Origin: Candidatus Binatia bacterium
GTDB taxonomy: Bacteria > Desulfobacterota > Binatia > HRBIN30
Reading direction: 5' to 3'
Length of the DNA: 64,000 nt
Assembly (NCBI GenBank): GCA_026415395.1
Contig: JAOAHD010000016.1
Location: forward strand, 124,001 to 188,000
The first letter of the stretch is position 1; each line of letters opens with the position of its first letter. A model generated the notes under the pieces. That model ran no database searches and had not been told where the DNA came from. It saw only the letters and a list, made by a program, of their open reading frames with translations. This document shows, piece by piece, positions 44,582-55,703 of this stretch. A program made the position numbers and the translations under genes.

Positions 44582-46404
44582 GCAATCAGGACTCGCCTTC
44601 GGGTGTTCGCCTCCGCGACTTGCTCCGCCCCCGCTGGCTCGCAGCCAGGAACCGCGTCCGCCGTGCTCCTGTTACCACTCGTTGGCAGCGGGTGTTTTTG
44701 CTCTTGCTCGCGGGCGGACTCGGAACGGGCGTCTTCGTGTTTTTTTACCGGGTGCTCACCTACTTTCTCACCGTGCCCGAGTTTGGACCCATTCTCACCT
44801 ACAAGCTGCTCGGCATGGTGTTGCTCACATTTCTCTCCGTGCTGCTGTTTTCCAACATCATCGTTGCACTCTCCACCTTCTTCTTATCGGCGGAAATGGA
44901 GCTCCTCGTCGCCGCCCCCGTGCCCATCCGCAAGCTTTTCCATGCTCGCTTTTTCGAAACGATTACCGAGTCGTCCTGGATGGTGGTGCTCTTCGCTCTA
45001 CCCGCTTTTTTCGCGTACGGGCTGGCCCACGAAGCCCATCCTGTGTTCTATTTATTCGCCCCGCTCACCCTGGTGCCGTTCTCCATCGTGCCCGCAGCCC
45101 TGGGGGTCGTGATCACCGCGATCCTCGTTAACGTCTTCCCCGCTCGCCAGGCGCGGGACTTCCTGGTGCTCGCGGCCATTGTTGCCGGCGCGGTGCTGTA
45201 CATGGCATTGCGGTTTCTCGAGCCAGAGCGGCTCGTACAGCCCGAGCAGTTTGCCGACTTTGCGCAGTTTCTCGTGGCCATGCGCACGCCCACAGCCACG
45301 TGGCTCCCCAGCACCTGGGCAGCGGAAATTGTCCACGGGCTTGCCTTGCAGGAATCGGCACACCTCGGCTGGTGGACCGCTGTTCTCGTTGGCAGTGCGG
45401 CGGCGAGCTGGTGGGGAGCGGGGCACCTCACGGCAGCGCTGTTCCTCTCCGGCTACAGCAAGTCGCAAGAGGGCCGCAAAGCGCGTCTCTCGGGGCAGCG
45501 CCTTGCGGCTCGGGGCCTCAGCGGGCTCACTGCCTGGCTTCCGCGAATTTTTCGGCTCTGGGTGCAAAAGGACACGAAGACATTTTTCCGCGACGCAAGT
45601 CAGTGGTCGCAACTGATCCTCTTGCTCGCGCTCGTTGTGGTCTACTTGTACAACTTTCGCGTGTTGCCCCTCGGCAGCATGCCGCTCGTAACATTCTACT
45701 TCCGCAACGTCATTTCTTTTCTCAATTTGCTGCTTGCGGGCTTTGTAGTGGCCTCTATCGCCCAGCGCTTCGTATTCCCGGCAATCAGCTTGGAGGGCCG
45801 TGCCTTGTGGATTGCGCAGACCGCCCCAATCGACTTGCGGCAACTGTGGTGGAGCAAGTTTTGGGTAGCTCTGATCCCACTTCTGATACTGGGCGAGACG
45901 CTCATCATCGTCACCAACCATTACCTACGCGTGCTGCCGTTCATGCGGTGGCTTGCTCCGGCCACCATGGCTGGCCTCATTGTCGCCATTGTCGCCATCA
46001 GCCTTGCTGCTGGCACCCGCTACCCTCGGTTCGAAGCCGACCAAGCCAACAAAATCGCCACCAGTGTGGGCGCCTTAATTTCCATGATTCTGTGCATGAG
46101 CGTTGTCGGGGCTGTTGTCGTCTTGCAGGCTTGGCCGACGTATGTGCTGTTCTTCAGCTACCTACAAGACACGCCACTCGATCGCACCCAGTGGGCGACT
46201 GTCATCGGCTCCTTGGCTGCATCCGGCGGAGTCATCGTGGCCGCAGTGAGCGAGGCCATTCGACGGGGGCTACGCGCAATCGACGAGTTCAGCACTCGAC
46301 CGCAGGGAGACGGGGCGGGAGTGCCCGGTCTCTATCGTCCGGAACCAGCCCCGGCTGCACACAGTGACGGATCGAGCAAGGCTGTGGCGCGCTGGAGCTC
46401 ATAG
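44578..46404 (+). CDS. Large ABC exporter permease subunit
   Basis: A 608-residue polytopic membrane protein with at least ten hydrophobic segments spread over its length (for example about 38-56, 72-100, 132-156, 175-200, 250-270, 355-375, 395-420, 460-480, 515-535). It fits the group of putative ABC permeases without recognised catalytic motifs that pair with CcmA-like ATPases. The substrate is unknown. The last 73 bases overlap, antisense, with the coding end of the 46332-48176 gene, and both frames look real. Confidence 0.82.
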   Translation: MSNQDSPSGVRLRDLLRPRWLAARNRVRRAPVTTRWQRVFLLLLAGGLGTGVFVFFYRVLTYFLTVPEFGPILTYKLLGMVLLTFLSVLLFSNIIVALSTFFLSAEMELLVAAPVPIRKLFHARFFETITESSWMVVLFALPAFFAYGLAHEAHPVFYLFAPLTLVPFSIVPAALGVVITAILVNVFPARQARDFLVLAAIVAGAVLYMALRFLEPERLVQPEQFADFAQFLVAMRTPTATWLPSTWAAEIVHGLALQESAHLGWWTAVLVGSAAASWWGAGHLTAALFLSGYSKSQEGRKARLSGQRLAARGLSGLTAWLPRIFRLWVQKDTKTFFRDASQWSQLILLLALVVVYLYNFRVLPLGSMPLVTFYFRNVISFLNLLLAGFVVASIAQRFVFPAISLEGRALWIAQTAPIDLRQLWWSKFWVALIPLLILGETLIIVTNHYLRVLPFMRWLAPATMAGLIVAIVAISLAAGTRYPRFEADQANKIATSVGALISMILCMSVVGAVVVLQAWPTYVLFFSYLQDTPLDRTQWATVIGSLAASGGVIVAAVSEAIRRGLRAIDEFSTRPQGDGAGVPGLYRPEPAPAAHSDGSSKAVARWSS

Positions 46405-48176
46405 AGGTGCGCATACAGTCCACCCTGCCTGAGAAGTTCTGCATGGGTGCCCTGTTCACGAATTTCCCCGCGGTGCAAAACGATTATACGGTCCGCGCGT
46501 TCTACCGTCGCTAAGCGATGGGCAATAACAATCACCGTGCGCCCGCGGGTGACGGTTTCGACGGCATCCTCCACGAGCGCTTCGGTTTGGGGGTCGATGG
46601 CCGAAGTGGCTTCGTCGAGCACGAGAACACCAGGGTCCTGCGCCAGGGCACGAGCGTAGGCCAGCAGTTGCCGTTGGCCCAGCGACAGATTTGCGCCGCG
46701 CTCGCCCACGGGTTCGTCGTAACCACGGGGGAGCTGGCGGACAAACGTGTCCACATGCACCGTGCGGGCAACTCGCTCAATTTGCTCGCGCGAAAGATCA
46801 GCGCGGCCCAGGGCAATATTTTCCGCCACAGTGCCGGAGAACAGGAAGACGTCTTGGCTGACTACCCCCACATGCTTCCGCAGTGCATGCACATCCCAAT
46901 GGCGCACATCGACCCCGTCAACCAACACTGCACCGCGCCCGACATCGTAGAACCGCTGGAGCAGCTTCACCACGGTGCTCTTGCCGGATCCAGTGGCGCC
47001 GACCAGCGCCACGCGCTCCCCAGGGCGAACAGCAAACGAGATTTGCCGCAGTACCCATTGGTCGTCGCGGTAAGCGAACCACACATTCTGGAATTCGACC
47101 TGCCCTTGTTTTCGAACCGGGACGATTGTCTGGCCAGTCTGCGGCTGTCGAGTCGGTGTGTCGAGGAGTTCGAAAATCCGCTCCGCAGCGGACATCGCCG
47201 ACTGCATCACCGCATACTTGCTGGAAAAATCGCGAATCGGAGCAAAGAATCTTTGAACGTATTCGATGAACGCCACCAACGTTCCAAAAGCCAAGGCCCC
47301 TTGGATGACCTCGCCACCGCCATACCAAACGATGGCAGCAAAGGAGATGCTAGCCACGGCTTCGATGAGCGAGAAGAGCGCCGCCTCATAAATGTTTGCC
47401 CAGTGGTTGGCGTCGCGGTGGGCGCGGTTCCGTTCGTCAAAGTCCGCCCAAGCCTTATTCTCGCGTGCGAAAAGCTGAATCAGCGCCATCCCCGTGACTG
47501 CCTCCTGCAAGTAGGCGTTGAGGCGTGCGACGCGTTCCCGGATCAAACGGTAGCTGCGACGCGCGCGAACGCGGAAAAAATCGACAATTACGACCAACAC
47601 AGGCACCACCGCGAGACTCACCAACGCCAGGCGCCAATCGATCCAAATTAAGATCGCCACGATGCCGAGGAGGGTGAGAAAATCCGTCACTAACGTCATC
47701 ACGCCAGCGGAGAACATCTCGTTGATCACGTCGATGTCGGTCGTCAGTCGGGTCACCACCCGACCCACCGGGTTGCGCTCGAAATAGCCAATATCCAGCT
47801 CCTGCAAATGGGCGAAGAGTCGCAGGCGCAAATCTCCCAAGCTGCGCTGCGCCAACACCATCGTGAGATAGTACTCCAGATATAGGAAGAGCGACTCGGC
47901 CAGCAGCGCCCCTAAATAGACGAGGCCCATGGACATCAGCCCGGCACTTGCTCCAGCAAGCACGTAGCGGTCGATGCTGAGCTTGAGCAGATATGGCTGC
48001 AGCAACGAAAAGACCGTGGCGAGAGGCAACGTGATCATCGCGCCAGTGAACCACCAGCGGTACGGGCGGATAAACTGCCACAGGCGCAACAACAGGCGGA
48101 CATCATATGTCCCATCCTCGCCCGCGCCACCGTCTTTGCCTGCGCGCCAACGCGACAGCCAAGAATCTGTTTTCAT
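46332..48176 (-). CDS. Half-size ABC exporter, catalytically complete partner
   Basis: A 614-residue type I ABC exporter half: six transmembrane helices in residues about 30-330, then an ATPase. Walker A is G-A-T-G-S-G-K-S-T, the signature is the unusual L-S-L-G-Q-R-Q, and Walker B is V-L-V-L-D-E-A-T-S-A-I-D with the catalytic Glu intact, followed by I-A-H-R-L. It begins inside the 3' end of the 48173-49906 gene (ATGA overlap), and together they form an MdlAB/YheIH-like heterodimer, inferred as a lipid, peptide or drug exporter. Non-canonical signature plus partner Asp indicates one degenerate ATP site. Confidence 0.93.
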   Translation of the reverse strand: MKTDSWLSRWRAGKDGGAGEDGTYDVRLLLRLWQFIRPYRWWFTGAMITLPLATVFSLLQPYLLKLSIDRYVLAGASAGLMSMGLVYLGALLAESLFLYLEYYLTMVLAQRSLGDLRLRLFAHLQELDIGYFERNPVGRVVTRLTTDIDVINEMFSAGVMTLVTDFLTLLGIVAILIWIDWRLALVSLAVVPVLVVIVDFFRVRARRSYRLIRERVARLNAYLQEAVTGMALIQLFARENKAWADFDERNRAHRDANHWANIYEAALFSLIEAVASISFAAIVWYGGGEVIQGALAFGTLVAFIEYVQRFFAPIRDFSSKYAVMQSAMSAAERIFELLDTPTRQPQTGQTIVPVRKQGQVEFQNVWFAYRDDQWVLRQISFAVRPGERVALVGATGSGKSTVVKLLQRFYDVGRGAVLVDGVDVRHWDVHALRKHVGVVSQDVFLFSGTVAENIALGRADLSREQIERVARTVHVDTFVRQLPRGYDEPVGERGANLSLGQRQLLAYARALAQDPGVLVLDEATSAIDPQTEALVEDAVETVTRGRTVIVIAHRLATVERADRIIVLHRGEIREQGTHAELLRQGGLYAHLYELQRATALLDPSLCAAGAGSGR

Positions 48177-49906
48177 AGTGCGGCAATTGCCTCTTCGAGC
48201 TCTTGTTGGCGGAACAATGCCGCGTAGGTGCCGCCCCGCATGAGGAGCTGGTCGTGACGACCCACTTCCACTACGCGCCCGCGCTCCAACACAACGATGG
48301 TGTCCGCGTATCGCACCGTTGAGAGGCGGTGCGAGATCAAGATTGTCGTCCGCTCGCGCAACACAGGCAGCAACCCTTCCAGGATGCGCCGCTCGGTCTC
48401 AGCGTCGACACTCGAAAGAGGATCGTCCAACACCACAATCGGCGCCGGTGAAAGCAGCGCCCGCGCCAGGGTCACGCGCTGCTTCTGTCCACCGGAAAGC
48501 AGCACGCCGCGCTCACCGACCATTGTGTCCAGGCCGCGCGGCAACCGCTCGAGATCCTGCTCGAGCCCGGCCAAACGCACCGCCCGCCAAATCTCGTCGT
48601 CGCTCGCGTGCTCCGCCGCAAACGCAATGTTCTCCCGCAGGGTTGCAGAGAACAAAAACGGATCCTGCGGGACGACGCAAACGGTTCGGCGCAGCGTCGA
48701 AAGCGGCCACGACCGCAGGTCGTGCCCATCGATGTGCACGGTGCCTGAGATTGGGTCCCAGAGGCGCGGCACTAGGGCAGCGAGCGTCGTTTTGCCTGCA
48801 CCCGTTCGCCCCACGATAGCAACGAGGGCCCGCGCCGGGATCCGCAGGTTTAGCTCGCGCAGCGCCGGGGTGCGCTCTCGCCCAGGGTAGGCAAACGTGA
48901 CGTTACGAAATTCCACTTCCCCGCGGACCTCCCGAGGCGAGATGGGGCGTGGCGCTTCGGCAATCGTCGGCTCGAGGGACAGAATTTCTTCCAAACGGCG
49001 CATCGCCGCCCGCCCGCGCTGGAAAACTGAGAGAATCCAGCCCAGGGCCATCGTTGGCCAAGCCAGCAGGTTCAAGTAACCCAGAAAGGCAACCAGATCC
49101 CCCACCGTGAGCTGGTTGCGGATCACCAGGTACCCCCCATACCAGAGAACCACCAACGATCCCGCTCCGGAGGCTAGCCGCATCAGCGGGAAGAGGCGTC
49201 CGCGAATGCGCGCAAGTTCCACACTGACCGATTGAAAGCTGTCGTTGGCTTTGCGGAAGCGCTCGATCTCGATTTCCTCCGCGGCGTGCGCACGCACGAT
49301 GTGGGCGCCGCTCACATTCTCTTGTACGAGTGCGGCAAGTCCGGCCAAACCCTCTTGAACGCGGAGAGTTCCCTCCATCAATCGGCGGCTCAAGAACTTC
49401 ACCACCCCCAGCAATACCGGGTATGGTGAGAGTGCCAGTACCGTCAGCCACGCGTCGAGCTGGCACATGATGGCAAGACCGTACGCGTAGTACAGCGGCG
49501 TGTTGATCAGGTTCAGCACACCGGGACCGAGAACCATCCGTACGGCTGTAACGTCGTTCACCAGGCGCGACATGACATCCCCTGTCGGATTGCGACGATA
49601 GTAAGACACGGGCAAGCGCAGGAGATGAGCAAAGAGATCGTTGCGGAGGTCGTACTCGACATCACGCCCCACATTGAAGATCAGCGCCCGCGAAAACGTG
49701 CGGGCCACAGCTTGTGCGATCGCAATGACCACAACCAGCAACGCGAACTGCACAACTTGCGCTCCGTGACCCAATGCGGCAGAGTCCACCGCACGCTTGA
49801 GCAGGTACGGAATCGCCATCGCCATTGTTGCAGTGAGCAATAGGGCAAGGGCGCCCGCCGCATAGCGGCCACGATAGCGACGCAAGTATCCCCACAATCG
49901 GCTCAT
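48173..49906 (-). CDS. Half-size ABC exporter, degenerate Walker B partner
   Basis: A 577-residue type I ABC exporter half: six transmembrane helices in about 15-300, then an ATPase with Walker A G-R-T-G-A-G-K-T-T, a canonical L-S-G-G-Q-K-Q-R signature, and Walker B I-V-V-L-D-D-P-L-S-S-V-D, where the catalytic Glu is replaced by Asp; I-S-H-R-L-S follows. This matches the degenerate subunit of heterodimeric exporters such as TM287/288. It is translationally coupled to the 46332-48176 gene by a 4-base overlap. Confidence 0.93.
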   Translation of the reverse strand: MSRLWGYLRRYRGRYAAGALALLLTATMAMAIPYLLKRAVDSAALGHGAQVVQFALLVVVIAIAQAVARTFSRALIFNVGRDVEYDLRNDLFAHLLRLPVSYYRRNPTGDVMSRLVNDVTAVRMVLGPGVLNLINTPLYYAYGLAIMCQLDAWLTVLALSPYPVLLGVVKFLSRRLMEGTLRVQEGLAGLAALVQENVSGAHIVRAHAAEEIEIERFRKANDSFQSVSVELARIRGRLFPLMRLASGAGSLVVLWYGGYLVIRNQLTVGDLVAFLGYLNLLAWPTMALGWILSVFQRGRAAMRRLEEILSLEPTIAEAPRPISPREVRGEVEFRNVTFAYPGRERTPALRELNLRIPARALVAIVGRTGAGKTTLAALVPRLWDPISGTVHIDGHDLRSWPLSTLRRTVCVVPQDPFLFSATLRENIAFAAEHASDDEIWRAVRLAGLEQDLERLPRGLDTMVGERGVLLSGGQKQRVTLARALLSPAPIVVLDDPLSSVDAETERRILEGLLPVLRERTTILISHRLSTVRYADTIVVLERGRVVEVGRHDQLLMRGGTYAALFRQQELEEAIAAL

Positions 49907-50030: not shown

Positions 50031-51689
50031 CTATTGGAGCGAGCCGCGCCACACTTCGATGGAACCAAAGTAGCCACGCTCGGGCGGTTTCGGGGCTTCG
50101 GCTGCCGTGGCTGCCCCACTTTTACCCTGATCCTTTTCGCCGCCGCCAAACAAGCGGCCCAACCAACCACGCTCCTTAGGCTTCTTTGCTGGCTTCGGGG
50201 CCAGGTCGCCAGACCGGAATGTGGGTGGAAGGACGTCGCCAAAGGCTACACCAATGTCGAGAACGCCGTCACGATCGATGTCCGCTAGGCCGACCCCCCA
50301 GGTGCGCTCGCGGCCATCATGGGGAAGCCCGGCCGATTCGGGAAGCATGGTAAAATTCCCTTTCCCGTCGCCTAAGAAAGCGAACACTCCGTACACACCA
50401 CCGATTTCACGGGTATTCGTCTTCCCAGCCACGACCAAATCTGCCTTCCCGTCGTTGTTGAGGTCACCGACAGCGACACCCAAAGCGTTCATCAACGGCA
50501 AGCCATGTCCGTTCTGCACCGGAGCGCAAACGCCGGGTACGCACTGAGCTGGGTTCCCTTCCGCGTTGCATTGCTGCCCCACGTTCTTTGGGAGATCACA
50601 CTTCGGCTCTTCCGGTTCGCGTCCGGGGCGTGGGGGCGAAGGGTCGATGCAATCATCGTCGGTAAAACAGGAAGAACCACGGGTACCTTTCACACAAACG
50701 CCCTTACACACGTGCGTCGCACATGAACCGCCCGGACAGTCGGCAGACGAGGAGCAATAAAGGCCATCGTTGGCTCCTCCCACACATTGCCGAGAGTCAG
50801 TTGCCACATAGCCACCGGCTTCCGTTTGCAGGAATACCACCGGACCACGCGATTGATCTGTGGCGACAACGTCCGGACGACCGTCGCCATTGATGTCCCC
50901 TACGGCGACACCCCAGTACAGCCCATGGACTTCCGGAGCCGGCATGCCTGCCGAAGCTTCTTGCCAATTACCGCGACCATCTCCCAGCCACACCCGGGGG
51001 CCGGCAGAGTAAGCAGCGACGACGTCAAGGTTACCGTCACCGTTCATGTCACTCATCAAGACCGAGTTGCCCCACTCGCTGTGCGCCAGCCCTGTGGAGC
51101 TTTCTCGCCAGACTCCTTTGCAATTGCCGGTAAATGCCCGCACCCCTTCTTCGGAAGCCGCAACGGTTACGAGGTCGAGGCACCCGTCCTTGTTGAAGTC
51201 GCCCAACGCCACGTCCTCACAGCCAATCGTTGGCAAGCCTGCGGAGGCCGAGGTCCACCGACCGGTGCCGTCGCCCAGGAATACGAACACTCCCTTGCAA
51301 TGGTCGGCAATGGCGACATCCATCTTGCCGTCACGGTTCACATCGCCGAAGTCCATCCCGCCCCCGCAGAACGACTCGCGCGGCAAACCCGCAGACGCAT
51401 CCTGCCAATTACCCTTCCCATCGCCAGCCCAAATCCAAGGGCCGTCGGCTAAGCGTGATACCGCGCCTAAGTCGGCAAAGCCGTCGTTATTTATGTCGCC
51501 AAATGCAATTTGGCTCTTCCAGATCTTTGAGGTCGGCAGGCCAGTGCGAGCCGGCGTGTAGCGCGGCACCTTGCCGGAGACACGCACCGCCTCCTGCGTA
51601 GCCGGGGGCTTTTTTGCAGGGCACCCGCTCAACACGGTCGCGGCCGGCCACACTAATGTCACAATCAACAACCATTCCGCTTTCCTCAT
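50031..51689 (-). CDS. FG-GAP/VCBS repeat lipoprotein with Cys-rich insert
   Basis: A 552-residue predicted lipoprotein (leader V-L-S-G-C at about residue 22). Seven FG-GAP/VCBS-type repeats of the form G-D-x-N-x-D-G-x-x-D-x-x-x-A are visible (for example F-G-D-I-N-N-D-G, L-G-D-F-N-K-D-G, V-G-D-L-N-N-D-G, L-A-D-I-D-R-D-G), alternating with W-Q-x-A-S-A-G-L-P segments. This suggests a seven-bladed calcium-binding propeller. Between the fifth and sixth repeats a Cys-rich insert (about 90 residues) carries a C-x9-C-x5-C-x4-C module. A charged Lys/Pro-rich segment precedes the C-terminus. A strong ribosome site (AGGAGTAGGTAG) precedes ATG 51689. Surface adhesion or ligand-binding is inferred only. 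Confidence 0.85.
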   Translation of the reverse strand: MRKAEWLLIVTLVWPAATVLSGCPAKKPPATQEAVRVSGKVPRYTPARTGLPTSKIWKSQIAFGDINNDGFADLGAVSRLADGPWIWAGDGKGNWQDASAGLPRESFCGGGMDFGDVNRDGKMDVAIADHCKGVFVFLGDGTGRWTSASAGLPTIGCEDVALGDFNKDGCLDLVTVAASEEGVRAFTGNCKGVWRESSTGLAHSEWGNSVLMSDMNGDGNLDVVAAYSAGPRVWLGDGRGNWQEASAGMPAPEVHGLYWGVAVGDINGDGRPDVVATDQSRGPVVFLQTEAGGYVATDSRQCVGGANDGLYCSSSADCPGGSCATHVCKGVCVKGTRGSSCFTDDDCIDPSPPRPGREPEEPKCDLPKNVGQQCNAEGNPAQCVPGVCAPVQNGHGLPLMNALGVAVGDLNNDGKADLVVAGKTNTREIGGVYGVFAFLGDGKGNFTMLPESAGLPHDGRERTWGVGLADIDRDGVLDIGVAFGDVLPPTFRSGDLAPKPAKKPKERGWLGRLFGGGEKDQGKSGAATAAEAPKPPERGYFGSIEVWRGSLQ

Positions 51690-52032: not shown

Positions 52033-53196
52033 ATGCGAGTGAAGAAGCGGTTTTGGGGCTTGGGGACGTTGGGAGCCTCCGCTCTCGGCGTGCTTCTTTG
52101 GTCCAACGTTGGAATGAGCCAAGAAGTTCGCAGCGTGACGAGCGAAATCAGCGGTTCCGTGGTCGTGTATCCTAAGGTTGTGTGGGACGGCACGCGGGAC
52201 ACAATTATCCAACTTAGTAACACCGGCAACAGCTTGGCGTTCGTCCATTGCTTTTACGTCAATGGCGCTCCGGCCAATCCCAATCAGCCTGTCGGGCCGA
52301 GCAATCCCCCGCTCTGGACGGTGACGGATTTCGAACTTGTCCTCACGCGCCAGCAACCGACGATGTGGGTAGCCAGTGCTGGGCGGCGAGTGGATCATAC
52401 GAGTCCGTTTGGAGTTTACGGGGCCGGGTTCGACCCAGGGTTGATCCCCCCGGTTCCGCAGGGTTTCACTGGGGAGCTTAAGTGCGTGCAAGTGGATGAA
52501 ACGGGCCAACCCTGGCCTGGAAACCGCCTCAAGGGCGAAGCGACGATTCAACGAGACGACGGGGATGTGAGCACGTACAACGCCATCGCACTGCCGGCCA
52601 ACACGGCCAATCTTCCGGGCCCTGATCTCGAACTCACTCTGACGGACGCCAATTGGGGTGGCGAATATGCCGCCTGCCCGGACACCACGATCTTGAACCA
52701 CTTCGCTCATGGCGCGGCGCAGCTTTCTCTATCTTCGGCGACCTCTCTCGGCGGTTTGGGCCTGTGTGCCGGAAACAATTGCCCCGTGAATACCATGCTC
52801 ACGGTGGTTCCTTGCACGCAGGACTTTGAAGCGGGCCGGCAAACAACCGTGACGTTACAGTTCCTGACGTGGGATGAGTTCGAAGCGCGACTGAGTGGGA
52901 GTTTCTCGGTGACTTGCTGGCTTACCGCCCCCTTAGGGCAACTCTCGGCGGCATTCACTCCGGGAGCTCTCGGCGGCTCCACGACCCGGCACACGCGTTT
53001 CCGGCCAGTTCCGGGTCAGGGCGGTGTGTTGATGGTAGCAGAGGAGATGCGGGTAACATCGACGGGAGCGACGGCCATGGCAGCGTACAATCCCTACGTG
53101 CAAGGAAACCGTTATGACGGCGCAACCCAAGGCGAGAATGACGACCCGCTGCCCGCACCGAATGCGACTGACGTTATCTCGGTTCCGGTCGAGTAG
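52033..53196 (+). CDS. Exported protein, first of three tandem paralogues
   Basis: A 387-residue protein of unrecognised family. A signal peptide (T-L-G-A-S-A-L-G-V-L-L-W-S-N-V-G-M-S-Q) is followed by S-G-S-V-V-V-Y-P-K-V-V-W-D, R-D-T-I-I-Q-L-S-N-T, D-F-E-L-V-L-T-R-Q-Q-P, G-E-L-K-C-V-Q-V-D, T-I-L-N-H-F and V-V-P-C-T-Q-D-F, all shared with the next two genes. Six or more Cys may form disulfides. No enzyme motif or transmembrane segment beyond the signal was seen. AGGAG at 52021 precedes ATG 52033; the frame is open further upstream without signal-like sequence. Confidence 0.78.
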   Translation: MRVKKRFWGLGTLGASALGVLLWSNVGMSQEVRSVTSEISGSVVVYPKVVWDGTRDTIIQLSNTGNSLAFVHCFYVNGAPANPNQPVGPSNPPLWTVTDFELVLTRQQPTMWVASAGRRVDHTSPFGVYGAGFDPGLIPPVPQGFTGELKCVQVDETGQPWPGNRLKGEATIQRDDGDVSTYNAIALPANTANLPGPDLELTLTDANWGGEYAACPDTTILNHFAHGAAQLSLSSATSLGGLGLCAGNNCPVNTMLTVVPCTQDFEAGRQTTVTLQFLTWDEFEARLSGSFSVTCWLTAPLGQLSAAFTPGALGGSTTRHTRFRPVPGQGGVLMVAEEMRVTSTGATAMAAYNPYVQGNRYDGATQGENDDPLPAPNATDVISVPVE

Positions 53197-53244
53197 CACG
53201 TCATGCAGGGCCATCTGCTGGTGGTGAGGAAAGGAGACGACGTG

Positions 53245-54492
53245 ATGAGCACCATGACGCTAACGAAACTCGCTAGGGCGCTGTGGGTTTTGGCCCTCGG
53301 AGCGGCAACTGTTTGGGGCGCGGGCTCGGCCAACGCAACGGTGGGATCCGATTCGTCAGGCGCGATTTTGGTTTTCCCCAAAGTGGTTGTGGACACAAGC
53401 GGCGTGCTGTTCGGGAGGCCGACGGACACGGAAATTCAAATCACTAACACTTCGAACTCGATTATCGCTGCCCGTTGCTACTGGGTAAACGCCACTGGGC
53501 ATTGCAGCAACGCGCCGACGGTGGCGTGCACGCCGGAGACAGCCAGTCAACGCTGCCCAACTGGTGGCCGCTGTCTCGAAAGCTGGACCGAAACCGATTT
53601 CCGTTTCCGGCTAACCAAACGGCAGCCGATTTCTTTCAATGCTGCCGACGGCTTGACAACTTTTCCTTTAACTGGGGGCACCCAGGGGCCCGGAGGCCAA
53701 ACCAACGCCGACTCTTCGATTCCTCCCGTGCCTGAGGATCCGTTCATCGGTGAACTCAAGTGTGTGCAGGTGAACCCGGACGACTTCCGGCCCACCCCCG
53801 GGCTGAACCCGGCCAACAATGCTGCTGGAGACCTCGCAGGCCACGCGACCATCGTTTCCGCGTCGAGCGGCGCGCCAGCGGACATCGATGCCCGGAAGTA
53901 CAACGCGATCACCCTGAAGTCGACGACGGCGAACGACAACAACGATACCCTCATCCTCGGCGGACCCGGAGCAGAATACGATGGCTGTCCCAATGTGTGG
54001 ATCCTCAACCATTTCTTCGATGGTGCATCCATTCCATCCCATTTCTCCGGTGGTAATCAGGGAGTTACCCAGACGGCCGCCACGGACATCACCGTTGTCC
54101 CCTGCAGCGAGGACTTTCTGCTGCAGGAAAACAACCTCGGGGGAGCAACCTTACAATTCCTAATTTTCAACGAGTTCGAGCAACGGTTCTCGAGCTCCAC
54201 CCGCTTTACCTGCTTCCGTGAGGTCCAGTTGTCGGATATCGACACGCGGCCCGGTACGGCGGACAATCAGTTCTCGATTTTTAGCGCTGGCGTGCAAGGC
54301 ACACTCAGCGGGCAGACACGCATCCGTTCTGTGCAAGGAAGCGAGCGTGCCAACGGCATCATGGTCGTGGCAGAACGTTTCCTCACGATTTCGGATGGGG
54401 CAGCCCCCCGCGTCAACACCAGTGCTGAGAACGTTCACTTTACCGGCAGCCGTGATCGCTCTGACTTGATCATCTTGAGCCCGAACGACTAG
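53245..54492 (+). CDS. Exported protein, second of three tandem paralogues, with Cys insert
   Basis: A 415-residue paralogue of the neighbouring two genes. The signal peptide ends near A-G-S-A-N-A. Shared elements include S-G-A-I-L-V-F-P-K-V-V, T-D-T-E-I-Q-I-T-N-T, D-F-R-F-R-L-T-K-R-Q-P, I-G-E-L-K-C-V-Q-V, I-L-N-H-F-F-D-G-A and V-V-P-C-S-E-D-F. Compared with its neighbours it carries a Cys-rich insertion near residues 85-115 (H-C-S-N-A-P-T-V-A-C to G-G-R-C) resembling the cysteine module in other secreted proteins of the window. ATG 53245 or GTG 53242 are both possible after AAGGAG. Confidence 0.75.
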   Translation: MSTMTLTKLARALWVLALGAATVWGAGSANATVGSDSSGAILVFPKVVVDTSGVLFGRPTDTEIQITNTSNSIIAARCYWVNATGHCSNAPTVACTPETASQRCPTGGRCLESWTETDFRFRLTKRQPISFNAADGLTTFPLTGGTQGPGGQTNADSSIPPVPEDPFIGELKCVQVNPDDFRPTPGLNPANNAAGDLAGHATIVSASSGAPADIDARKYNAITLKSTTANDNNDTLILGGPGAEYDGCPNVWILNHFFDGASIPSHFSGGNQGVTQTAATDITVVPCSEDFLLQENNLGGATLQFLIFNEFEQRFSSSTRFTCFREVQLSDIDTRPGTADNQFSIFSAGVQGTLSGQTRIRSVQGSERANGIMVVAERFLTISDGAAPRVNTSAENVHFTGSRDRSDLIILSPND

Positions 54493-54521
54493 GCTATCCC
54501 ACTTGATCGGGAAGTTTCGGA

Positions 54522-54550
54522 GGGCAGAAGCACAACGCTTCTGCCCTTTT
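54522..54550 (+). terminator. Hairpin terminator after the second tandem exported gene
   Basis: A 10-base stem (54522-54531 with 54537-54546) with a 5-base loop, followed by a TTTT run. It sits 30 bases after the stop at 54492 and before the third paralogue, so that gene likely has its own promoter or relies on read-through. Confidence 0.85.
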
Positions 54551-54650
54551 ACTTTTCTAGGAGCCAACTGCCTCGACCTACCAGGACTCACCGCCGCAGA
54601 AAGCACCCAAGCTACTTCGATGACGGTGAGAAATGCGTTAGGAGCGAGCT

Positions 54651-55703
54651 ATGCGAAACTCCCAGTGCCGTGCGTCGATCCCGATGAAGAAATGGATTGT
54701 AAGCCTGTTGGTAGCTGCTGCTTCTCTCACGAGCCTCCCCGTGCACAGCGAGATGGGAACAAATCAGCCAGGTGCCCTCGTGTGGTTCCCGAAGGTCGTC
54801 CGCGATGCGGATCGGGACACGATCATCCAGCTCACCAACACAACTGGCGTGCGAGTGTCGCTCCTCTGCATCTACGTCAATGGCGCCCCTGATCCGGCAA
54901 CCGGCCAGCCGCTTTGGCAAACCGTTGACTTTCAAATTGCACTGACCCGGCAGCAACCCAGCTTCTGGGTTGCCAGCATGGGCCTTGGCCCGCAGCCGTC
55001 GGACGGACGCCCGGCCGACCTCCATCCTGGACTCGTACCGCCGCTGGCGGAGGGATTTCTTGGCGAGCTCCGCTGTGTGGTGATCGACGAAGGAGAAATA
55101 CCGAGCTCGCGCAACGCACTCATTGGCGAGGCCACAATTGTGAACCGGTCGACCGGCGCTCAGGAGAAGTACCCCGCTTTTACCTTCCGGGGTATTGGCA
55201 CCAACAACCGCGACAACATTCTCGCCCTGGATGATCGCGAATACAGCGCCTGCCCTCGGATCCTGATGTTCAATCACTTCTACGCGCAAGCGCCGGACCC
55301 AATCACCGGAAGCCCGGTCGACACGCGCGTCACCTTTGTCCCTTGCAGCGCTGATTTCAATCGAGCAGTCCCGACGACTACGAATCTTCTCTTTGAAACA
55401 TTCAACGAGTTCGAACAGCGCCTCTCTGCCAGTCTAACGGTCACCTGCTTTGCTGACTTACCACTCCCGTCGATCGATAGCCCTTCCGATCCAACGCGCT
55501 CAGTGTTCCACTTCGCAACTCAAGGCACGATCGCTGGGCAAACCCGAGTGCGACCGGTGCCGACACGGTCCGTCCAACACGGAGTGGGCGTGATCTTGCT
55601 TGGGACCGAGTCCGTGAGTGGCAACCGCACCGCGACAATCACCCCCCACTTTATCGGCGGAGCCCTTCAAGGCGATGTGATCGTGCTGCCGACTTCGTTC
55701 TAA
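54651..55703 (+). CDS. Exported protein, third of three tandem paralogues
   Basis: A 350-residue paralogue, the shortest of the three. After a signal peptide (I-V-S-L-L-V-A-A-A-S-L-T-S-L-P-V-H-S) come P-G-A-L-V-W-F-P-K-V-V-R-D, R-D-T-I-I-Q-L-T-N-T, D-F-Q-I-A-L-T-R-Q-Q-P, L-G-E-L-R-C-V-V-I-D, Y-S-A-C-P-R and F-V-P-C-S-A-D-F, aligned with the other two. AGGAG sits several bases before ATG 54651; a later ATG at 54684 would also give a signal peptide. No function can be assigned. Confidence 0.78.
   Translation: MRNSQCRASIPMKKWIVSLLVAAASLTSLPVHSEMGTNQPGALVWFPKVVRDADRDTIIQLTNTTGVRVSLLCIYVNGAPDPATGQPLWQTVDFQIALTRQQPSFWVASMGLGPQPSDGRPADLHPGLVPPLAEGFLGELRCVVIDEGEIPSSRNALIGEATIVNRSTGAQEKYPAFTFRGIGTNNRDNILALDDREYSACPRILMFNHFYAQAPDPITGSPVDTRVTFVPCSADFNRAVPTTTNLLFETFNEFEQRLSASLTVTCFADLPLPSIDSPSDPTRSVFHFATQGTIAGQTRVRPVPTRSVQHGVGVILLGTESVSGNRTATITPHFIGGALQGDVIVLPTSF

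Follow-up and report, generated by a model that had tools for sequence, protein, structure and literature searches.

The ASRT/TM1070-like beta-sandwich (ASRAH; PF07100; PDB 1NC7, 2II7) is best known from a cytoplasmic rhodopsin partner. ASRAH domains have been proposed to bind small molecules, probably sugars, and the same source describes TM1070 as a tetramer and other ASRAH families as occurring as dyads or tetrads (De Souza et al., 2009, PMC2739507). It also describes actinobacterial cell-surface proteins with two ASRAH domains, which are predicted to be lipoproteins and have links to a WhiB regulator, a glycosyltransferase and an inactive peptidase (PMC2739507). Here we consider a family of exported proteins encoded three times in succession at 52033-55703 of a 64,000-nucleotide stretch of a Candidatus Binatia genome (the window, meaning that whole stretch). 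The lineage is called as yet uncultured in the title of PMC8262859, according to which HRBin30 genomes come from thermal springs. The analysis gives this family a predicted fold, a subunit logic (ordered pairs of two gene types, Y and X) and a linked partner, an FG-GAP repeat lipoprotein. With a probability of roughly 45%, we propose that Y and X form heteromers of four ASRT-like domains that work alongside this lipoprotein at the outer membrane, where they would bind a glycan or another small ligand.

Ordered pairs of Y and X genes

Loci from 14 genomes of the order and two outgroup genomes gave 199 hidden Markov model hits, of which 187 are near-full-length members; the other 12, contig-edge or fragmented open reading frames (ORFs), were left out of the tree. 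Members from the order divide into 84 Y and 99 X, and four others stay apart: the outgroup members of G371 and G390, and an aberrant pair of the window's own genome (L023:6587-9054), one protein of which has a Thr/Pro-rich N-terminal stretch. Y forms a clade in each of the three trees compared (Shimodaira-Hasegawa-like support 0.81 and 0.94; ultrafast bootstrap 88). For X this holds in only the two FastTree trees (support 0.13 and 0.84); with IQ-TREE, run on 58 rows, eight outlying rows lie on the X side. In none of these trees do X and Y rows mix.

The two types mostly stand in a fixed order. An X gene stands directly after 82 of the 84 Y genes, which lie in 65 clusters; shuffled orders gave at most 46 such pairs, and 0 of 20,000 reached 82. 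Fifty-nine of the clusters start with Y and 64 finish with X. At the two exceptions the neighbour is an untyped family ORF, fragmented in one case (G056, L065) and partial at a contig edge in the other (G472, L078). Spacing within the 82 pairs is -4 nt in 11, between -1 and 45 nt in 51 and 66 nt in one; 19 show overlaps of more than 4 nt, which are probably an artefact of taking the first start codon. Y-X pairs are often close enough for translational coupling. Divergence is also matched between partners: their distances within genomes correlate at 0.63, and none of 1000 permutations came as high (maximum 0.43).

The genes of the window follow this pattern:

52033..53196, + strand: Y1 (Y-type) gene, 387 aa; signal peptide and two domains predicted as ASRT-like beta-sandwiches (by homology to the third protein, which was modelled), domain 1 without a Cys-rich insert
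53245..54492, + strand: X1 (X-type) gene, 415 aa, starting 48 nt past the Y gene; Cys-rich insert
54519..54549, + strand: terminator-like hairpin (consensus match only) between the Y-X pair and the third gene
54651..55703, + strand: X2-type gene, 350 aa; no Cys-rich insert, five cysteines past the leader; modelled as a whole protein

The original prediction, made from the letters of the window, described a tandem trio of exported paralogues. Three adjacent ORFs do lie on one strand, all with hydrophobic leaders, and in an alignment of the three the second and third copies match the first at 40% and 42% identity; the blocks they were said to share all occur in the stated order, some copies differing by single substitutions. 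Chance likeness is excluded because the third protein has paralogues elsewhere in the same genome with E-values down to 7.6e-53. As a unit, however, the trio is a Y-X pair with a further X-type gene behind a terminator-like hairpin, and six genomes have the order Y1-X1-X2 as in the window. The terminator placed between copies two and three corresponds to this stem-loop, with its 13-pair stem and T-rich tail. Since a scan of the region found no more such sites than shuffles did (4 versus 4.8), the weight of the hairpin rests on its stem, tail and position.

Some X-type genes carry additions. Those at L077:1162-3270, L101:5792-7744 and L105:8040-10223 run on into long C-terminal tails in which dockerin-like motifs or repeats rich in Thr and Pro can be seen by eye; a Pfam scan of the L101 and L105 genes gave no match. 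Upstream of a Y2-X-Y-X cluster, L021:3747-6404 encodes a large exported protein, rich in Thr and Pro, in which dockerin-like motifs are visible by eye; Pfam gave no match to it. Similar genes stand there in 12 genomes, a likeness that may rest partly on low-complexity repeats.

Predicted fold, export signals and cysteines

An AlphaFold model and a genome-wide count of paralogues had been suggested as checks, and both were carried out (for the count, see below). The third protein, modelled from 37 relatives, reached a predicted local distance difference test score (pLDDT) of 87.4 and a predicted template-modelling score (pTM) of 0.84. Its domain 1 (residues 39-181) aligns best with TM1070 (1nc7; Z 13.4, root-mean-square deviation (rmsd) 1.8, 106 of 116 residues), the next entry standing at Z 6.4 in a realignment of the top 996 Foldseek chains. 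Domain 2, predicted alone from 54 sequences (pLDDT 94.2), has 1nc7 at the top both in Foldseek and among 985 aligned chains (Z 11.1, rmsd 3.9, 111 of 116 residues). Four ASRT entries follow at Z 7.8-8.0, the edge of the tool's meaningful range, and then an entry at 6.2. Both halves are therefore predicted to carry an ASRT/TM1070-like beta-sandwich fold. The two domains appear to have this fold in common without detectable sequence likeness, as their direct comparison shows no similarity (hhalign 0.2%; reversed control 0.1%). The transglutaminase, arrestin and capsid rows that top the whole-model Foldseek list were set aside as long, poor alignments with TM-scores below 0.2.

Features of the ASRAH fold are only partly present. 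In domain 1 an Asn ends strand 2: N63 closes strand 55-63 of the model, and Asn is found there in 178 of 183 members. Domain 2 has a strand-ending Asn (157/183) or Asp (25/183) as a candidate counterpart. The Trp at the start of strand 1, an ASRAH feature, is absent from the consensus, which reads I-L-V-F-P-K; the third protein has a Trp inside strand 1, where the consensus has none. If the registers agree via N63, the His position of the ASRT ligand signature would correspond to D56 (173/183) and the Cys position mostly to Q60 (134/183). The model thus suggests an ASRT fold for the family; because no sequence link to ASRT was found, we do not claim membership of the ASRAH superfamily as proven.

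The family had been called unrecognised, which holds for the curated sequence families searched; the fold is recognisable by prediction. Pfam gave no match to the three window proteins, and NCBIfam no convincing one. Across 37 members, Pfam at E up to 1 returned 16 families with one or two members each, PF07100 not among them; these weak matches (best E 0.0063) were taken as chance, as was a match of one member to a beta-lactamase model in the NCBIfam scan of the same 37 (E 0.0024). PHROGs gave no convincing match and a plasmid search nothing convincing, sequence searches of the PDB gave three unconvincing matches in one run (E 0.27-1.7) and none in the other, and viral structure matches, many to capsid proteins, had low TM-scores and were judged unconvincing. 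The earlier statement that no enzyme motif is visible agrees with these scans, which found no enzyme family either.

One protein in these genomes does bear sequence-level ASRAH matches. The product of L127 ORF 700-1854 (G472:C97:14592-15203), predicted to have two domains, matches PF07100 twice above the curated cut-off, and its leader looks lipobox-like by eye. It is a predicted ASRAH dyad at the level of sequence, and its genome also has the family.

Predicted export signals are general in the family. A crude hydropathy test finds a hydrophobic leader in all 183 X/Y members of the 14 order genomes; 182 of the leaders have an AxA-like site and two a lipobox-like one. Four core cysteines are present in 183/183 and a fifth in 174/183. 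The count past the leader is odd in 143/183 and exactly five in 6/6 X2, and even in 11/12 Y2 and 2/4 outlying members; the members counted are related to one another, and odd parity is a hint only of an inter-subunit bond. The middle copy of the window has the Cys-rich insert ascribed to it, but the insert is not peculiar to that copy: with at least four cysteines, it occurs in 91/93 X1, 11/12 Y2, 4/72 Y1 and 0/6 X2, which makes it characteristic of X1 though not exclusive to that type.

A linked FG-GAP lipoprotein and the age of the set

The genes around the trio in the window are as follows:

50031..51689, - strand: FG-GAP repeat protein gene, divergent to the trio; lipobox LSGC (by eye) and a Cys-rich insert of its own
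46332-49906, same strand as the FG-GAP gene and directly after it: two ATP-binding cassette (ABC) transporter genes (Pfam ABC_membrane, ABC_tran)
downstream of the trio, on the opposite strand to it: LptD gene (Pfam LptD, E 1.7e-26)

The product of the divergent gene is an FG-GAP repeat protein by Pfam (E 5e-45). Its gene adjoins a family cluster in all 14 order genomes examined and, in four of five outgroup genomes from another class, lies downstream of family genes (G390, G536, G543 and G371, where one gene intervenes). In G371 and G390, FG-GAP matches at E <= 1e-5 are found only at the family locus. A close homologue was found in 20 of 200 genomes from two classes, each of the 20 also carrying family genes: G503 and the 15 order genomes (16/145), and 4/55 of the other class. 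The thresholds, 1e-25 for the 145-genome class (at most nine candidates per genome scored) and 1e-15 for the 55-genome class, were set to exclude generic FG-GAP proteins. G503, which was chosen via its FG-GAP gene, has a family gene directly upstream (E 6.7e-48). The FG-GAP lipoprotein is thus a conserved linked partner of the family. By eye, most of its homologues have a lipobox (those of G371 and G390 do not), and its Cys-rich insert is similar in style to the X1 inserts.

Other neighbours recur as well. At the window-type locus the ABC transporter pair follows the FG-GAP gene in 14 genomes and LptD is present in nine. At four outgroup loci, a gene for a DsbA-like domain with a SurA_N-like region follows the FG-GAP gene (homologues in all four by tblastn). 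Pfam placed DSBA over the cut-off in both of the two proteins scanned (L063:11390-12694 and L064:5928-7073) and SurA_N in one. A DsbA-like neighbour fits oxidative folding of secreted products.

The family is present in all 15 order genomes searched, with 14-30 matching stretches each (stretches, not genes). The window's own genome holds 15 copies in five clusters, three in the window and 4, 4, 2 and 2 elsewhere. Near-full-length X/Y genes number at least 6-18 per genome and pairs 2-8 in 14 genomes (six in the window's own); copy numbers are lower bounds, G443 and G467 C126, C222 and C257 having been left out. Outside the order, a first search of the class (145 genomes, 130 of them not of the order) gave no match but missed at least one genome, G503, which its FG-GAP gene later revealed; another class of the phylum has the family in 5/55 genomes (G371, G390, G536, G543 and G561). 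A further search found it in at least 4 of 395 genomes, with at most four candidates per genome scored. Among named relatives, those nearest to the first protein are in Bacterium HR30 (89%) and in a Candidatus Binatia genome (87%), names that suggest a place for the window's organism in the HRBin30 order of Binatota. A pattern scan of one genome per species (84,980 species), from which records near the window may be missing, found nine loci: four in Bacterium HR30, three in the Candidatus Binatia genome, one in a metagenome-assembled genome (MAG) and one in a MAG labelled Deltaproteobacteria.

Family genes occupy four conserved loci, marked by a class IV aminotransferase gene, by FG-GAP and LptD (the window type), by a Thr/Pro-rich gene and by a UDP-sugar dehydrogenase gene. 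Locus types were assigned by hand from recurrent neighbours, and 42 of the 183 X/Y genes have none. In 132 of the 141 typed genes the nearest relative in another family shares both locus type and position (about 7% expected by chance), and for this reason the duplicated set is old, and probably ancestral to the order. The genes are paralogues duplicated in tandem, as first supposed, but to judge from these positions the duplication is an old one.

Weighing the explanations

The proposal starts from what was computed: export signals, a predicted fold, gene order, correlated partner divergence, FG-GAP linkage and co-occurrence, and the age of the set. Each protein would be an exported, disulfide-stapled dyad of two ASRT/TM1070-like beta-sandwich domains. 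Y and X would form a heteromer, the pair supplying four domains, as many as the TM1070 homotetramer. At the outer surface the Y-X proteins may act together, perhaps in contact, with the FG-GAP beta-propeller lipoprotein, and they may bind a glycan or other small ligand, a role suggested because ASRAH domains are proposed binders of this kind (PMC2739507). The several pairs of a genome would then be a repertoire.

A number of observations weigh against this reading. Only one member was modelled whole, and with that model 1nc7 ranks only 11th by Foldseek E-value (probability 1.00), behind the low-TM-score transglutaminases. A sequence link to ASRT by hhalign (alignments of 2 and 12 rows) has a probability of 0.07-0.28%, no better than column-shuffled controls (60 and 100 shuffles), PF07100 does not match the family in 20 relatives including the window's genome at E <= 10, and the SHEshChhN His/Cys ligand signature of ASRT is absent from strand 2. 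The 82 pairs are not independent, since most descend from a few ancestral pairs. Seventeen of the 99 X genes lack a Y immediately upstream (some lie at contig edges), and the outgroup genomes G371, G390 and G503 have a single copy each, so pairing is not needed everywhere. As for the partner, within the order linkage to the FG-GAP gene is confined to the window-type locus and does not extend to the other pairs, and at the threshold applied G561, which has the family, shows no close FG-GAP homologue.

The family was first described as surface or secreted structural proteins. The exported part of that description stands; a structural role is possible only, the fold's known relatives being proposed ligand binders. 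Under such a role, Y and X could alternate in a filament, layer or matrix held by inter-subunit disulfides, with no specific ligand. The five conserved core cysteines and the prevailing odd count, exactly five in every X2, would leave one Cys free for an inter-subunit bond; copies are many, and Thr/Pro-rich proteins adjoin some clusters or, by eye, extend some members along with dockerin-like sequences. However, even counts prevail in Y2 and occur in half of the outlying members, several distinct old pairs at separate loci suit specialised roles better than one major structural protein, and no filament, S-layer or chaperone-usher pilin family in Pfam or NCBIfam convincingly matches the family. 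No usher was seen among 15 Pfam-scanned neighbour genes, recurrent neighbours otherwise having been read by eye. We regard this explanation as rather unlikely. A place inside the outer membrane, with the FG-GAP protein facing the periplasm and the family aiding transport or envelope building, seems to us unlikely. The plain signal peptides with no visible sorting signal, the ABC transporter genes that follow the FG-GAP gene on its strand and the nearby LptD gene are consistent with it, but these transporter and LptD genes lie on the strand opposite the family and recur at the window-type locus only, and outgroup loci have the DsbA-like gene after the FG-GAP gene instead.

It is also conceivable, if rather unlikely, that the genes are ordinary tandem duplicates whose products form no heteromer, the Y-X order being synteny inherited from one early duplication. 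The many typed genes at ancestral positions imply few independent events, and single copies and unpaired X genes exist. Yet every ancestral pair position retains both types in unchanged order, 11 pairs share the 4-nt reading-frame overlap, and partner distances correlate within genomes, an effect that joint duplication of neighbours alone could also cause. We keep the Y-X heteromer with its FG-GAP partner as the working explanation. A bolder form of it would see a new surface receptor of obligate Y-X heterodimers of ASRT-fold dyads, recreating the four-domain ASRT assembly in exported, disulfide-stapled form and having a dedicated FG-GAP lipoprotein as their outer-membrane anchor. The roughly six ancient pairs of a genome would make up a fixed repertoire of ligand specificities characterising the whole order; we hold this to be unlikely as a whole.

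The fold itself is already known; literature searches did not turn up dyads that are exported and Cys-rich, come as ordered Y-X pairs and have an FG-GAP lipoprotein beside them. FG-GAP repeat proteins (PF13517, PF01839) include the neighbour of the trio, which is a protein separate from the ASRT-like dyads; at the thresholds used its close homologues occur only in genomes that hold the dyads (20/20, two classes). The actinobacterial two-ASRAH proteins, as described in PMC2739507, are likewise exported with two ASRT-fold domains per chain, and are predicted lipoproteins, whereas the family has plain signal peptides and a lipoprotein linked at one locus. With ASRT/TM1070 the family shares the predicted fold of both domains, and dyads exist there too. 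It differs in having neither detectable sequence similarity nor the His/Cys ligand signature, and in being exported, with five core cysteines, long loops, Cys-rich inserts and Y-X gene pairs. The prediction would thus extend the ASRT fold from its cytoplasmic setting to a cysteine-rich exported system.

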